A DNA stretch of 48,732 nucleotides from Roseomonas sp. GTDB taxonomy: Bacteria; Pseudomonadota; Alphaproteobacteria; Acetobacterales; Acetobacteraceae. A program made the translations under genes and the position numbers. How positions within the stretch are numbered: the first letter of the stretch is position 1; each line of letters starts with the position of its first letter. The notes beneath the pieces are model-generated. The model was given only the letters and a program-made list of their open reading frames with translations. It had not been told where the DNA came from and did not search any database. This document shows positions 3,103 through 25,433 of this stretch, piece after piece. The stretch spans positions 1 to 48,732 of the forward strand of contig JADCEV010000003.1 in NCBI GenBank assembly GCA_020249865.1, written 5' to 3'.

Positions 3103-3870
3103 ATGCCGAACCCGACCGCCTGCCTGCTGATCATCGGCAATGAGGTGCTTTCCGGCCGCACGCGCGATGCCAATCTGCAATTCCTGGCGACACGGCTTGG
3201 CGAAATCGGCATTCCCATGAAGGAAGTGCGGGTGATCCCCGATGTGCCGGAAGTGATCATCAATACGGTCAATGAAGTGCGCGCAAAGTTCGATCACGTT
3301 TTCACCACTGGCGGCATTGGCCCAACCCATGATGACATCACCAGCGAATGTGTCGCGCGCGCCTTTGGCGTGCCCTGGGAACCGCATCCGGATGCCTGGC
3401 ATGCTTTGGAATCCTATTACGCCAAGCAGAACCCGCCTGGCGATTTCAACGCTGCGCGGCAGCGCATGGCGACCATGCCGCGCGGCGCGATTTTGATCGA
3501 GAATTCGGTTTCCATCGCGCCGGGTTACACCATCGGCAATGTGCATGTGATGGCAGGTGTGCCGCGCATCATGCAGTCCATGTTCGAAGCGCTTGCGCCC
3601 CGGCTGCAAGGCGGCCCGCCCATCCTGTCGCGCAGCGTGCATGCGCATGGCGTGGTGGAAGGCGCGATTGCGGAGGGGCTTTCCACCATTCAGCAACGCT
3701 ATGCTGATTTGGATATCGGTTCCTACCCCTATTACCGCCAGGGCGGCGGTGGTGGAGTTGCCGTGGTGGCGAAGGGCACCGATCTGGCAGCGATTGAAGC
3801 CGCCGCGCAGGAGGTTTTCGCGCTGATGCAGAAATGTGGCGGTACGCCCGCGATGGGGGAGCCGGGGTAG
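3103..3870 (+). CDS. Molybdopterin-binding (MoaB/CinA N-terminal type) protein
   Basis: A 255-residue protein with the MoCF_biosynth fold found in MogA, MoaB and the N-terminal half of CinA. The diagnostic segments are IIGNEVLSGRTRDAN near the start and TTGGIGPTHDD at about 68-78, which form the molybdopterin/nucleotide-binding site. It lacks the C-terminal nicotinamide-nucleotide amidase domain of full CinA, so it should not be called a pncC fusion. A good GGAGAAACCC ribosome site precedes the ATG. Its TAG stop lies in the GTAG target duplication of the mobile cassette that follows. Its precise role (cofactor synthesis or ADP-ribose hydrolysis) cannot be read from sequence. Confidence 0.88.
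   Translation: MPNPTACLLIIGNEVLSGRTRDANLQFLATRLGEIGIPMKEVRVIPDVPEVIINTVNEVRAKFDHVFTTGGIGPTHDDITSECVARAFGVPWEPHPDAWHALESYYAKQNPPGDFNAARQRMATMPRGAILIENSVSIAPGYTIGNVHVMAGVPRIMQSMFEALAPRLQGGPPILSRSVHAHGVVEGAIAEGLSTIQQRYADLDIGSYPYYRQGGGGGVAVVAKGTDLAAIEAAAQEVFALMQKCGGTPAMGEPG
3867..3870. repeat. Left copy of 4-bp target-site duplication (GTAG)
   Basis: GTAG directly precedes the left terminal repeat of the phzF cassette and is repeated at 5040-5043 directly after the right terminal repeat. The last three bases are the TAG stop of the upstream gene. Four-base duplications centred on TA occur in parts of the IS5 family. Confidence 0.7.
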
Positions 3871-3885
3871 GCCTCTTGGACAAAG
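3871..3885. repeat. Left terminal inverted repeat of the phzF cassette
   Basis: GCCTCTTGGACAAAG pairs with the right end at 5025-5039 at 14 of 15 positions; similarity fades after that. Just inside lies a small hairpin (CTTGGC 3891-3896 with GCCAAG 3902-3907). Confidence 0.75.
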
Positions 3886-3964
3886 CCCACCTTGGCGCGG
3901 AGCCAAGACTGCCTTGCGAACATGAGGGCGTATCGCTCGCGCCAAGTCCCTTACAGAGGTATCG

Positions 3965-4846
3965 ATGATCCTACGATATCAGACGGTTGATGTGTTTACG
4001 CAGACTCGGTTCGGCGGCAATCCGCTCGCGGTCGTGCTCGGCGCTGATGGCTTGACGACGGCGCAGATGCAGGCGATCGCTCGGGAATTCAATTATTCGG
4101 AGACCAGCTTTGTCTTACGGCCATCCGATCCACGCCATACGGCTGAGGTGCGCATCTTCACACCCACCGTCGAGGTACCCTTCGCAGGCCATCCGAACGT
4201 TGGTACAGCATTCGTCCTCGCAAGTGCCAGCGTCGCCGGCATGCGAGACGAGTTAATCTTCGAGGAGAAGGCCGGCTTAGTTCCAGTGCGCATCATCCGC
4301 GAAGGAGACCACGTCAAGCAGGTACAAATTGCTGCGCCGCACCCGCTGCGCATCGGCCAAGCCTTTGATGCTGGCGCGGTTGCGGAATGCTTGTCCCTGA
4401 CGCCAGCGGACGTCCTCTGCGACAGACATCCGCCTCGCGTGGCGTCGGTCGGCCTGCCTTTCGTTGTGGTGGAGATCGCCAACCGGCAGGCGCTTGCCCG
4501 CGCGCAGGCAAACGAAGCTGGCTTCGCCAAAATTTTTCCAAGCGATGGGGCGGACGCCATCTACCTTTATTGCCGGGAACTTGACGAGCGTGACGGTGCG
4601 GTCGACTTCACGGCACGCATGTTCGCCCCCTTTGATAACCTACCGGAGGACCCTGCGACTGGTAGCGCAACTGCTGCGACATGCGCCTTGCTTGCGTCTC
4701 TCGAAGGTGAGGCGTCCCGGAAGTTTGAGGTCGCCCAAGGCATCGATATGGGCCGCCCAAGCCTGATTGCAATTGAGGTCACACCTGAAGCGGTTCTGAT
4801 CGAAGGCGTCTGCATTCCTGTCATGTCTGGCCAGCTCTTGGTTTGA
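3965..4846 (+). CDS. PhzF-family isomerase-like protein (cargo of IS-bounded cassette)
   Basis: A full-length (293 aa) member of the PhzF/DapF-like fold. All three signature sites are present: E46 in NYSETSF, the proposed general acid/base; H76 in PFAGHPNVGTA; and D229 in EDPATGSATAA. PhzF isomerises dihydro-3-hydroxyanthranilate in phenazine synthesis, but no other phz gene is near, and most family members have unknown substrates. An AGAGG site precedes the ATG. It uses more GTC, CTC, GAG and GAC codons than the neighbouring genes, which favour GTG, CTG, GAA and GAT. This agrees with arrival on the mobile element that encloses it. The enzyme is probably functional; the reaction is unknown. 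Confidence 0.9.
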   Translation: MILRYQTVDVFTQTRFGGNPLAVVLGADGLTTAQMQAIAREFNYSETSFVLRPSDPRHTAEVRIFTPTVEVPFAGHPNVGTAFVLASASVAGMRDELIFEEKAGLVPVRIIREGDHVKQVQIAAPHPLRIGQAFDAGAVAECLSLTPADVLCDRHPPRVASVGLPFVVVEIANRQALARAQANEAGFAKIFPSDGADAIYLYCRELDERDGAVDFTARMFAPFDNLPEDPATGSATAATCALLASLEGEASRKFEVAQGIDMGRPSLIAIEVTPEAVLIEGVCIPVMSGQLLV

Positions 4847-4854
4847 TGCAAGAG

Positions 4855-4869
4855 CTGCTGCCACAGCAG
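4855..4869 (+). terminator. Weak stem-loop after the phzF-like gene
   Basis: CTGCTG (4855-4860) pairs with CAGCAG (4864-4869) across a three-base loop, starting eight bases after the stop. There is no clear T-run, so termination is possible but unproven. Confidence 0.3.
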
Positions 4870-4925
4870 ACTTCGATTGGCCTCACTTCAAATGATTGAT
4901 ATCAGGCTTCGTTTTGGAGGAAGCC

Positions 4926-5021
4926 TTGAGCGAGCGGATCGGACTGCCGGACAAGGAATGGGCGTTGATCGGGCCGCCGTTGACTGCTGAGCGTGGCCAT
5001 GGTTGTCGGTCGTCTCAGGAT
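4926..5021 (+). pseudogene. IS5-family transposase N-terminal remnant
   Basis: Starting from TTG at 4926, behind a strong GGAGGAAG ribosome site, 32 codons read as the start of an IS5-type DDE transposase. The stretch LPDKEWALIGPPLTAERG followed by SSQD matches the usual opening, an EWALIGPLLP-type segment then a P(A/S)QD-type segment. The frame then runs straight into the right terminal repeat, and the whole catalytic part is missing. A hairpin (GGCTTC 4905-4910 with GAAGCC 4920-4925) covers the ribosome site. This stub identifies the family of the cassette ends and shows that the element cannot mobilise itself. Confidence 0.75.
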
Positions 5022-5024
5022 ACC

Positions 5025-5039
5025 CTTTGTCCACGAGGC
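5025..5039. repeat. Right terminal inverted repeat of the phzF cassette
   Basis: CTTTGTCCACGAGGC is the reverse complement of the left end except for one base. It lies four bases after the last recognisable transposase codon. Confidence 0.75.
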
Positions 5040-5043
5040 GTAG
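5040..5043. repeat. Right copy of 4-bp target-site duplication (GTAG)
   Basis: Second copy of GTAG, between the right terminal repeat and the gluQRS stop codon at 5044-5046. Confidence 0.7.
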
Positions 5044-5895
5044 TCAGTTCGCCACCGCCATCGCCCGCACGTCAGCGGCGCTGATGCCCTTCTCCCGCAG
5101 CGCCCGCAGGCTTTCCGCGCCATCACGCTTCGCAAGCCTTCGCCCCGACGCATCCCGCATCAGCGCATGATGCGCATAGCGCGGCGCGGGCCAGCCCATC
5201 AGCGCTTGAATCAGCCGATGCAGATCAGTCGCTGGCTTCAGATCATCACCGCGCGTCACCAGCGTCACACCCTGCAGCGCATCATCATGCGTGACGCAGA
5301 GATGATAGGATGCCGTCACATCCTTTCGCCCCAGCACGACATCGCCGAAAACTTCCGGGCGGCATCTGTGCCAGCCCTCATTTTCCTCATGCGCCTGCAA
5401 GGGCGTGCTCACGGCTTCACAAGCGCGCGCCATATGCAGACGCAGCGCATAGGGCTGCCCGGCGGCGATGCGGCGCGCAGCCTCGGCTTCCGGCAAGTCA
5501 CGGCAAATCCCCGGATAAAGCGGCCCATCCGGTCCCTGCGGCGCGGCACCCGCCGCCGCGACTTCGCGCGCAATATCGGCGCGGGTGCAAAAACAGGGAT
5601 AGACCAGCCCGCGCGCCGCCAGCCTATCCAATACGGCGCGATATTCGTCGAAATGTTCGGATTGTCGGCGCGGCGCCTCATCCCAATCGAGGCCGAGCCA
5701 ACGCAAATCCTCCAACAGTGCCGTTTCATATTCCGGGCGGCAGCGCGTGGTATCTATATCCTCGATGCGTAGAAGAAAGCGCCCACCCGTGGCACGCGCT
5801 CGACGCCAGGCGAAAAGGGCAGCGCGCGCATGGCCCAGATGCAAATACCCCGTCGGGCTCGGCGCGAAGCGCGTGATTTCAGGCGTTGCATCCAT
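5044..5895 (-). CDS. gluQ: Glutamyl-Q tRNA(Asp) synthetase
   Basis: A shortened glutamyl-tRNA synthetase (283 aa, no anticodon-binding domain) that attaches glutamate to queuosine at position 34 of tRNA-Asp. The class I signature is FAPSPTGYLHLGHA (10-23). The zinc site is C101, C103, Y127 and C131, typical of GluQRS. The KMSKS-like motif appears as RRLAKRDGA near the C-terminus. I chose the ATG at 5893-5895, giving MDATPEITRFAPSP, over an upstream TTG because family members begin just before the signature. It is divergent from the esterase gene, 53 bp away. Its stop directly abuts the target duplication of the phzF cassette. Confidence 0.94.
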   Translation of the reverse strand: MDATPEITRFAPSPTGYLHLGHARAALFAWRRARATGGRFLLRIEDIDTTRCRPEYETALLEDLRWLGLDWDEAPRRQSEHFDEYRAVLDRLAARGLVYPCFCTRADIAREVAAAGAAPQGPDGPLYPGICRDLPEAEAARRIAAGQPYALRLHMARACEAVSTPLQAHEENEGWHRCRPEVFGDVVLGRKDVTASYHLCVTHDDALQGVTLVTRGDDLKPATDLHRLIQALMGWPAPRYAHHALMRDASGRRLAKRDGAESLRALREKGISAADVRAMAVAN

Positions 5896-5948
5896 GGCTT
5901 CCGCCGGGTAGCGGGCGAAGCGCACCGCAAGCAAGGGGAGAATCCCAG

Positions 5949-23390: not shown

Positions 23391-24205
23391 CCGAAGCCTT
23401 CACGGAAATCCTCTACTCAGTTGCGGATCGCGTCGCGACCATCACGCTCAATCGGCCGGAACGCATGAATGCCTGGTCGAGCGTGATGGAAGCCGAAACC
23501 CGCGCGGCCTTCACGCTGGCGGTGGCGGATGAAAACCTGCGCGCCATTGTGCTGACCGCAACCGGCAAGGGGTTTTGCGTTGGTGCCGATGTGTCTGCCA
23601 TCGCCACACGCGGCGCGGAACGCCCGATCTATGCGGGCGTGACGCCACCGCCTGATGATGCGCCACCCACCGAGGATTTCGCGCGGCGCTATTCCTATAT
23701 GCTCAATATCGGCAAGCCGGTGATTGCGGGCATTAATGGCGCTGTGGCGGGGGTTGGGCTTTGCCTGACGCTGTTTTGCGATATCCGTTTCATGGCGGCG
23801 GGGGCGAAGCTTTCAACGGCTTTTGCGCGGCGCGGTTTGGTCGCGGAACACGGCAGCGCCTGGATGCTGCCGCGCCTGATTGGGCCAATGAATGCGGCGG
23901 ATCTTTTGCTCTCAGGCCGCAGCATCACGGCGGAAGAAGCTGCCGCCATGGGGCTGGTGCGCGTGCTGCCGGCAGAAAGCTTCCACGCCTCCGTGCAGGC
24001 TTACGCGGCTGATCTCGCGAATAATTGCTCGCCACGTTCCATGCGCGTGATCAAGCGGCAAATGACACTCGCGCCATTTCAAACCTTGTCTGAAGCCGTG
24101 GAACTTGCCGAGGTCGAGCAGGACGCCACGCGGGGAACGGAAGACCGGCGCGAAGGGGTTGCGGCGTTTCTGGAAAAGCGCAAACCGAATTTCACGGGGC
24201 GCTAA
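23387..24205 (+). CDS. Enoyl-CoA hydratase/isomerase family protein (second copy)
   Basis: A 272-residue crotonase-fold protein: TLNRPERMNAW, the first oxyanion segment GKGFCVGADVSAI, the second INGAVAGVGLCLTLFCDIRF, and RGLVAEHGSAWMLPRLIG with one glutamate (AEHGS) at the catalytic position. It therefore differs from the first copy in its active-site acids and probably does a different step. The start overlaps the SDR stop, so the three genes form one translationally coupled operon. Its 3' end overlaps the convergent methyltransferase by 14 bp. Confidence 0.9.
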   Translation: MTEAFTEILYSVADRVATITLNRPERMNAWSSVMEAETRAAFTLAVADENLRAIVLTATGKGFCVGADVSAIATRGAERPIYAGVTPPPDDAPPTEDFARRYSYMLNIGKPVIAGINGAVAGVGLCLTLFCDIRFMAAGAKLSTAFARRGLVAEHGSAWMLPRLIGPMNAADLLLSGRSITAEEAAAMGLVRVLPAESFHASVQAYAADLANNCSPRSMRVIKRQMTLAPFQTLSEAVELAEVEQDATRGTEDRREGVAAFLEKRKPNFTGR

Positions 24206-25433
24206 TAAGCAGACGGTTCGTCTTTTCCAGCGCGGCGACCAAAGCCTGGAAATCGCGCGCGAAAACTTCTCGCGCTGTGCCATTCCGCGCCAGATCGTGA
24301 CCAATCTCTCCAATACTGCGCTTGCCATCAATGCGCGACAGGATCGCACCAGCCAAACGCGGCAAGGGCACCGGCACGGTCAGGCCATCAAAGCTCACGC
24401 GCAGCACGCCATCGCGTGGGATACCCGCGGCGAGTTTCGCGCCATCCAATTCGCGCAGGCACGGAATGGCGGCGGGATCATCCCAGGGCGCGCTGATCAC
24501 GGGCGCATCGGCGCGCACGCAATAGGCGATATGCACGCCCATATTGCCGGTAATCGCCTCGGCCAAAGCGGCGCGCTGCACCGCATCCAATGCCTCAATG
24601 CGCGGGCGCAGCTTGGGGTCGGAAAGGTAGGAAAGCGGATCGTAACGCAGCGGTTCCACCAGGCACACAATGCGCAAACCCGCGGCCGTGATCAGCGCAT
24701 TGAAGGCCGACACGGTGAAGGCGACATCGCGCGGGTTCAAAAGCAGATCATACAGCCCGGCATCGCCACCCTTTTCATGATCCGTGATCCAGGGATTGCG
24801 CCGCAGCCAGGCGGTTTCCGGCATTTGCCGCCAAAGGCGCTTGGCGATTTCAACCCGCGCCGCCGGCGCTTCATCGGGCGGGGCCAGCAGGCGCAGCGCA
24901 TCCTGCGCCATATAGACGCCCGTGCGCCCATGCGGCGCATAAACCATCAACCCCAAGCCACCACCTGGCGCCAGGACTGATACCAGCGCCTTCAGCCCCG
25001 CAAGCGGATCGGGCAGATGATGGAGCACACCGCAGCAATCAATGTAATCAAACGGGCCGAGCCCGCTGCCCGGAAGGTCCAGCAAGGACCCTTCCTGAAA
25101 CACAACATTGCTAAGCTTGCGCGCCGCCACGCGCGCTTCTGCCACGCGGCGCGCCGCCGCTGAGCGGTCAAGCCAGGTCACATCCCCCGCGCGCCCAGCT
25201 TGCGTCATTTGCTGCGCCAGCATCACGGTCGCATCGCCACTGCCACCACCGGCGACCAGGGCGCGGAGTGGCTGGCTGGCCGGGCGGCGAGCGCCAAAAA
25301 TCCAGTGATCCACTTCCCGCAAATGGCTCGGGCTGCCGATGATCAGGCGCTTGGCCTCATCCCGAGGATCCCGCTGCGGATAGGGATAGGCATCATATTG
25401 CGCGGCAAGCGCGGCATCGGCGGCGTCTTTCAT
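24192..25433 (-). CDS. Class I SAM-dependent methyltransferase with C-terminal extension
   Basis: A 413-residue protein. It begins AAQYDAYPYPQRDPRDE. A Rossmann methyltransferase domain follows (motif I ALVAGGGSGDATVML near 56-72, later YIDCCGVLHHLPDPLAGL). After about residue 230 comes a second domain without recognisable catalytic motifs, possibly for substrate binding. Related proteins occur in alphaproteobacteria with no assigned substrate. It stands alone on the minus strand, convergent with the crotonase operon, and its coding end overlaps that operon by 14 bp. Confidence 0.82.
   Translation of the reverse strand: MKDAADAALAAQYDAYPYPQRDPRDEAKRLIIGSPSHLREVDHWIFGARRPASQPLRALVAGGGSGDATVMLAQQMTQAGRAGDVTWLDRSAAARRVAEARVAARKLSNVVFQEGSLLDLPGSGLGPFDYIDCCGVLHHLPDPLAGLKALVSVLAPGGGLGLMVYAPHGRTGVYMAQDALRLLAPPDEAPAARVEIAKRLWRQMPETAWLRRNPWITDHEKGGDAGLYDLLLNPRDVAFTVSAFNALITAAGLRIVCLVEPLRYDPLSYLSDPKLRPRIEALDAVQRAALAEAITGNMGVHIAYCVRADAPVISAPWDDPAAIPCLRELDGAKLAAGIPRDGVLRVSFDGLTVPVPLPRLAGAILSRIDGKRSIGEIGHDLARNGTAREVFARDFQALVAALEKTNRLLISAP

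Follow-up and report, generated by a model that had tools for sequence, protein, structure and literature searches.

A PhzF-family gene between insertion sequence ends at the cinA stop codon of Roseomonas sp.: a probable MIC-like element

Two convergent genes of Roseomonas sp., both intact by the ORF list and family searches, are separated by 1,169 bp that contain a phzF-like gene and a transposase stub. The left neighbour is a cinA/NMN-deamidase-related gene (MoCF_biosynth; 3103–3870, plus strand), the right one is gluQRS, encoding tRNA glutamyl-Q(34) synthetase (5044–5934, minus strand). An earlier note on this DNA had proposed that the separating stretch is a mobile insertion cassette in which a metabolic enzyme replaces the transposase, and that it could still move. 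The questions addressed here are what this element is made of, how it came to its site and whether it can leave it. The window, i.e. the whole 48,732-nucleotide stretch of DNA analysed, belongs to a draft assembly of 3.65 Mb in 154 contigs (G000).

An insertion with target duplication at the end of cinA

The 1,169 bp are bounded by inverted repeats that agree at 14 of 15 positions, the left one (GCCTCTTGGACAAAG) at 3871–3885 on the plus strand, with a core related to the plasmid IS ends described below, the right one at 5025–5039 on the minus strand. GTAG stands on either side, at 3867–3870, where it overlaps the cinA stop codon, and at 5040–5043. A search of the window with the end sequence, allowing up to two mismatches, returned just these two ends (0.15 matches expected; two or more in 2 of 100 shuffles). 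Repeats and GTAG copies had both been reported in the earlier note, which also predicted that excision of the element with one GTAG would leave the two genes joined at TAG-TCA. Such a site exists in two other members of the genus, G020 and G033: their cinA ends in GGGGTAG and continues directly into TCAGTTCG of the gluQRS side, with a single GTAG, so that the junction, GGGGTAG followed by TCAGTTCGC, is the predicted joint. The 1,169-bp stretch is an insertion with a target duplication. Its base composition does not mark it as foreign (59.5% GC for the element, 62.4% for the window).

The length of the duplication can be read in two ways. TA is repeated at both sides (3868–3869 and 5041–5042), and the neighbouring G's are repeated as well. 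In two of the four plasmid relatives with both ends (L159 and L160) the repeated target is TA(G) rather than four bases, and in the table of PMC3281130, where IS427-group members are 832–865 bp long, duplications measure 2 bp in 10 of the 11 IS427-group rows considered; the true duplication may therefore be TA, with the flanking G's matching by chance, in which case the left repeat would be 16 bp long (GGCCTCTTGGACAAAG). The empty site is compatible with both readings.

The state of the site was surveyed by searching cinA in 35 genus genomes, own included, and reading up to 170 bases after it in those 17 members whose cinA identity reached 89% or more over the gene. The count covers these 17 sites; of the other 18 genomes, 16 have cinA at 74–78% identity and 2 have short fragments only, and in G024 and G008 a second, partial cinA match is left aside. 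The cassette is present in G000 and G018 (2 of the 17 sites read, 2 of the 35 genomes), and G015 has its left 90 bp alone (1/17). Directly joined cinA and gluQRS were found in 5/17 (G020, G033, G025, G024 and G027) and nearly joined genes in 2/17 (G023 and G034). Other DNA follows cinA in 7/17 (G013, G005, G030, G008, G007, G002 and G026); in four of these, G005, G030, G008 and G002, gluQRS was not seen within the up to 1.5 kb examined (74 bp for G008). Because DNA that is neither gluQRS nor cassette lies behind cinA in seven of the 17 close members (L026–L028, L034–L038), the gap between the two genes, corresponding to 3871–5039 of the window, may well be a hotspot for insertion or recombination in general. 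On contig 89 of G013 (L169, 6630–9112) cinA is intact and is followed by about 2.4 kb with two ORFs that from their translations alone resemble a glycosyltransferase and an FkbM-type methyltransferase; then comes a near-duplicate of the cinA 3' end, 85 bp long (83.5%), that leads into gluQRS. Apparently the new DNA either brought a gene end along or regenerated one.

Parts of the element and their sources

The right part of the element has recognizable relatives. When 72,556 plasmid records were searched by blastn with the element, ISs of alphaproteobacteria aligned with element positions 1026–1152 at about 76% identity. The 31-residue transposase stub, used in tblastn, matched 31 plasmid records at E up to 1, several of them annotated as IS5-family transposase, with up to 74% identity over 31 aa. 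Six plasmid loci from these matches were inspected for ends, which were found on both sides in four, on one side in one and on neither side in one. In the four two-ended ISs the distance between the ends is about 0.85 kb, the core of the ends reads TCGTGGACAAAG or CCGTGGACAAAG, and the target is CTAG or TTAG; three of the four sit on plasmids typed mobilizable or conjugative. In one of the four, two ORFs were scanned and gave PF13340 and PF13586; in a second, the first ORF was scanned and gave PF13340.

Alignment of the cassette with these four ISs (L155, L156, L159 and L160) shows an IS leader remnant of about 33 bp upstream of the transposase start (4893–4925, plus strand), then a TTG start at 4926 and the first 32 transposase codons (4926–5022, plus strand), after which the sequence jumps via GGATA (5018–5022) to the last IS bases, GGATACCCTTTGTCCACGA. 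The IS's own subterminal GGATACC precedes the right repeat, as comparison with the plasmid ISs shows, and the 32-codon stub running up to that repeat is the one that the earlier note had recognized. L155 and L159, two of these four ISs, which are intact, have GGATA at both places of the deletion, thus deletion between short repeats would be the simple cause. Judged by these comparisons, the right end (about 4893–5039) is an internally deleted IS5-family, IS427-group-like element, in agreement with both transposase homology and end sequence; the assignment to the group was made from length, TA target and the table in PMC3281130, not from ISfinder. The plasmid relatives resemble IS427-group members such as IS1248, ISPaes1 and other Paracoccus ISs: their ends are of the GTGGACAAAG type and lie some 0.85 kb from each other, their target contains TA, and their transposases have PF13340/PF13586. 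What sets the cassette apart from these ISs is the cargo of about 1 kb inside it and a transposase of which 32 codons are left. When the right remnant was searched against 395 genomes of the order, 26 genomes, own included, matched at E 0.001, the best non-own match being 77% over 93 bp; among 14 such loci inspected, three had an end-like core, each on one side only.

The sequence immediately left of the IS leader (4847–4892, plus strand) is a joining segment with no detectable IS relation, its similarity to six IS starts not exceeding that of shuffles. A first alignment had hinted at a degenerate inner left repeat near the IS remnant, but the match was no better than shuffles, and no inner left repeat above shuffles was found beside the right remnant. 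In the absence of such a repeat the simplest anatomy is a single IS with cargo inside, and as no IS similarity above shuffles was seen upstream of 4893, the cargo apparently lies between the left repeat and the leader of the IS.

The cargo is an intact PhzF-family isomerase/epimerase gene of 293 codons (3965–4846, plus strand), as the earlier note had stated. The PhzC-PhzF domain covers the full length of the protein (PF02567, E 3e-61; TIGR00654), which has the SETSF, FAGHP and EDPATGSA motifs, known for their catalytic roles in the PhzF family, and is similar in sequence to solved PhzF and YddE chains. Besides the G018 copy the closest homologues in the GTDB genome collection, among the best 80 of 387, come from a Phreatobacter MAG (77%, the highest identity), a Hyphomicrobiales MAG (76%) and Ancylobacter (76%). 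In a tree of 65 rows (51 of the other 79 loci, 12 matches from a search of 59 genomes and the two cassette copies) the cassette protein groups with the Phreatobacter, Ancylobacter and Hyphomicrobiales MAG proteins, with SH-aLRT values of 98, 96 and 99 for the enclosing groups of 8, 9 and 17 rows; eleven PhzFs of other genus members form a separate, distant clade. The source of the cargo would thus be Hyphomicrobiales-like. DNA similarity to six homologous phzF loci covers the coding sequence and little beyond. Among the best 80 of 387 PhzF homologues the pair of cassette ends was found at the G018 record only, with a lone 13/15 match at L146, and of 12 pattern stretches suggesting PhzF relatives in viral contigs none was confirmed. 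PhzF proper of phenazine biosynthesis is encoded in a phz operon and acts on DHHA. The immediate neighbours of the present phzF gene are cinA and gluQRS. No promoter-like site was found by a simple consensus in 3700–5200 (0.4 expected by chance), and phzF may be transcribed from the cinA side.

The 79 bp from the left repeat to phzF (3886–3964, plus strand) match no known IS end, and the left 94 bp, used as a DNA query, retrieved no IS. Together with the repeat this stretch is kept in G015, which at the same site has element bases 1–90 (left repeat and 75 bp) and no phzF. The similarity is 84.6% over 91 aligned columns, compared with 91% for cinA, and the G015 stretch appears to be related to the cassette, but older and truncated. 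Directly after the 90-bp remnant an 8.8-kb insertion starts (contig 17; L167, 3018–11854), with ORFs resembling, from translations alone, a LuxR-type regulator, transporters and a hydrolase.

The left end can be folded into a long stem. The left 97 bases have a folding z of −2.2 and the G015 copy −2.1, with 7 of 200 shuffles as good in either case; three sequences of this end were found, two of them nearly identical. In the stem itself (3890–3947 in the window; L005 1501–1590, minus strand, in G015) there is one apparent compensatory change, from GAGC/GCTC to TAGC/GCTA. A structured RNA or riboswitch before phzF was considered and rejected, Rfam being empty except for a chance match (E 4.9) inside phzF. 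Nor is the left end a multi-copy MITE: among 59 genomes it occurs in G000, G018 and G015 only. In 385 genomes of the class it gave, besides its own copy, three unconvincing matches of 25–42 query bases (E 0.003–0.01), in plasmids nothing convincing, and a single pattern match in a viral contig lay inside an unrelated coding sequence.

Two carriers, one site

The second cassette was found in JADCFR010000243.1, a MAG labelled Roseomonas sp., which we take as the record of G018, likewise a draft assembly; the two have equal numbers of differences from the window in both element ends. In G000 and G018 the cassette sits at exactly the same base pair, and its orientation is the same. The two copies differ at 7 of 1169 element positions, compared with 57/768 in cinA and 28/304 on the gluQRS side, together 85/1072 for the flanks (Fisher p 2e-20). 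Purifying selection on phzF would not explain the low divergence of the element: third codon positions differ at 3/293 in phzF vs. 50/255 in cinA, and the non-coding parts of the element at 3/287. These figures point to recent sharing of the cassette between the two genomes, and since the site is identical and the flanks are far more diverged than the element, they suggest that the two alleles descend from one another or from a common source, with no new transposition.

The sharing probably occurred by homologous recombination of the cassette with short flanks, for which the flank evidence is thin. Going outwards from the element, the flanks of G000 and G018 first differ at base 22 on the left and at base 32 on the right, the latter counted from GTAG. 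Within this interval the two share three bases against G020 and G033, at −10, +14 and +15. None of the five joined sites (G020, G033, G025, G024 and G027) has the +15 base (counted from the start of GTAG), and −10 and +14 occur in other relatives too; a single private base gives weak support to recombination. In a local tree of the 2.25 kb left of the site (16 rows) a sister relation of G000 and G018 was not rejected (AU p 0.115), and a clade of G000, G018 and G015 was rejected (AU p 4e-5). The tree used for the AU test was built without G023 and the outgroup; a version with both had a far too long outgroup branch.

Present mobility of the cassette, which the earlier note had thought possible through a related IS acting in trans, is not supported. 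The element is single-copy in its own genome, and among 59 genomes, own included, it is near-whole in G018 only; what else matched, apart from G015, were brief pieces of phzF or the like. Exact matching found no further copies of the ends in the 35 genus genomes, and the one extra match to a broader end pattern, in G025, lies within coding sequence. No match was found in phage records, and phage carriage was rejected. IS427-type transposase matches occur in 28 of the 35 genus genomes (E 1e-5; cassette stubs included), and several of the 13 transposase loci examined for ends have IS427-like ends; an intact IS with the ends of the cassette was found in none of the 35. The IS427-type transposase of the own genome (C95, L196, match 24077–24517) has an in-frame TGA and ends TAGGTTGTGTGGACA, unlike those of the cassette, and the nearest ends in the genus, similar but not identical, are those of an IS in G019 (GGCCGCGTGGACAAACC). 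Draft assemblies often lose repeated ISs, therefore the missing partner is weak evidence of absence. A TGA inside the IS427-type transposase match also recurs in G020, G025, G030 and G023. Some IS427-group members have two overlapping ORFs (PMC3281130), and this layout may or may not be the cause of the recurring TGA. The cassette is probably immobile now, with phzF retained as an accessory gene beside cinA.

Relation to known elements and possible histories

Mobile insertion cassettes (MICs) are described as passenger genes within IS-type inverted repeats and without a transposase (PMC3913671, PMC3129680). The element reported here has a passenger gene bracketed by IS terminal inverted repeats, 32 remaining codons in place of a functional transposase, and a target duplication with empty sites in relatives. 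Presence at more than one site, which would support mobility and stands outside the definition given in PMC3913671, was not observed, there being one site. The proposal of a cassette in which an enzyme replaced the transposase of an IS5-type element thus stands for the IS5-derived insertion, the target duplication, the exchange of transposase for cargo and the empty sites, and falls for present movement. MIC231 and the mic elements with qnrD and qnrS2 are alike in having a passenger within IS-type repeats, no transposase and a target duplication (PMC3913671 and PMC3129680). They differ in their IS231 base, the present one being IS5-family and IS427-group-like, and our cassette has a PhzF-family enzyme, a leftover transposase stub and a single site. 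Transporter ISs (tIS) keep their transposase, and the cassette does not. The carriage of passenger genes by an IS is common to both (PMC3129680).

Passengers of IS5-family elements had been called rarely described. No IS5-family MIC was found in the literature searched; transposase-less IS derivatives with passengers are themselves a described class. In the consulted part of PMC3281130 MICs are mentioned only in the introduction, PMC7371123 places passenger genes in Tn3-family transposons, and literature on phzF combined with IS terms returned no such cassette in titles and abstract openings. A phzF cassette on what appears to be an IS427-group-like scaffold was, in short, not found in print, although the kind of element, the MIC, is already known.

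We consider it likely that the cassette is a MIC-like IS derivative with PhzF cargo, which would have arisen as follows. An IS427-group-like IS of the IS5 family would have lost most of its transposase by internal deletion at the GGATA repeat, and about 1 kb of other DNA with the PhzF gene, from a Hyphomicrobiales-like source, would have come to be held between the left end and the transposase leader. A transposase acting in trans on both ends may then have inserted the cassette at the TA/GTAG of the cinA stop codon, duplicating the target, as the anatomy and the empty sites suggest. Later a near-identical copy would have become common to this and one related species at that site, the probable route being homologous recombination over a short tract around the cassette, and a related copy would have been truncated in another lineage. 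With a single known location, the data do not demonstrate that the cassette moved as a whole. This single location, and the different sources of the IS part and the cargo, would equally fit a plain IS that was first at the cinA stop and received phzF later in place, so that the cassette never moved as a unit. We regard this as the less probable course, though one with a real share of the probability. In G015 the left repeat and the 75 bp following it stand at the same site, so their joining would have preceded the state seen in G000 or been independent of it, and among the 14 close non-carriers, read over up to 170 bp, none has a plain IS end of the cassette type as the first bases after cinA.

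Other origins appear more remote. Two IS copies might once have bracketed phzF as a composite transposon and both decayed, which would agree with the inner sequence of the left end being different from the IS's own subterminal sequence; the lack of an inner repeat above shuffles beside the right remnant, and of any IS in the searches with the left 94 bp, make this unlikely. Slightly less likely still is that the cassette is mobilised in trans by a resident or plasmid IS427-group transposase and that G000 and G018 represent separate insertions at a preferred site. In its favour, both ends are nearly intact, and three of the four plasmid ISs that have two ends, related to those of the cassette, are on plasmids of the mobilizable or conjugative types; the element also shows far stronger conservation than the flanks, where the two carriers have just one private base. 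Against it stand the same base pair and orientation in two genomes with no other site, and the failure to find an IS sharing these ends in any of the 35 genus genomes; moreover, with a target as short as TA or GTAG the repeated choice of one site would be surprising. The most doubtful proposal is the broadest, that IS427-group-like cassettes are a gene-capture system which repeatedly docked cargo at the cinA stop in Roseomonas-like lineages independent of each other (G000, G018 and, with its truncated relative of the cassette, G015). If true, the cinA-gluQRS gap would be a preferred docking site.

The effect of these findings is local and leaves the general knowledge of IS elements unchanged. 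What the locus offers on the preferred reading, that of a MIC-like derivative, is a clean natural example of an IS turned carrier, with a short-repeat deletion, a foreign metabolic gene inside and intact empty sites, and with a near-identical cassette at the same base pair in two related species, between more diverged flanks and with no evidence of new jumps.
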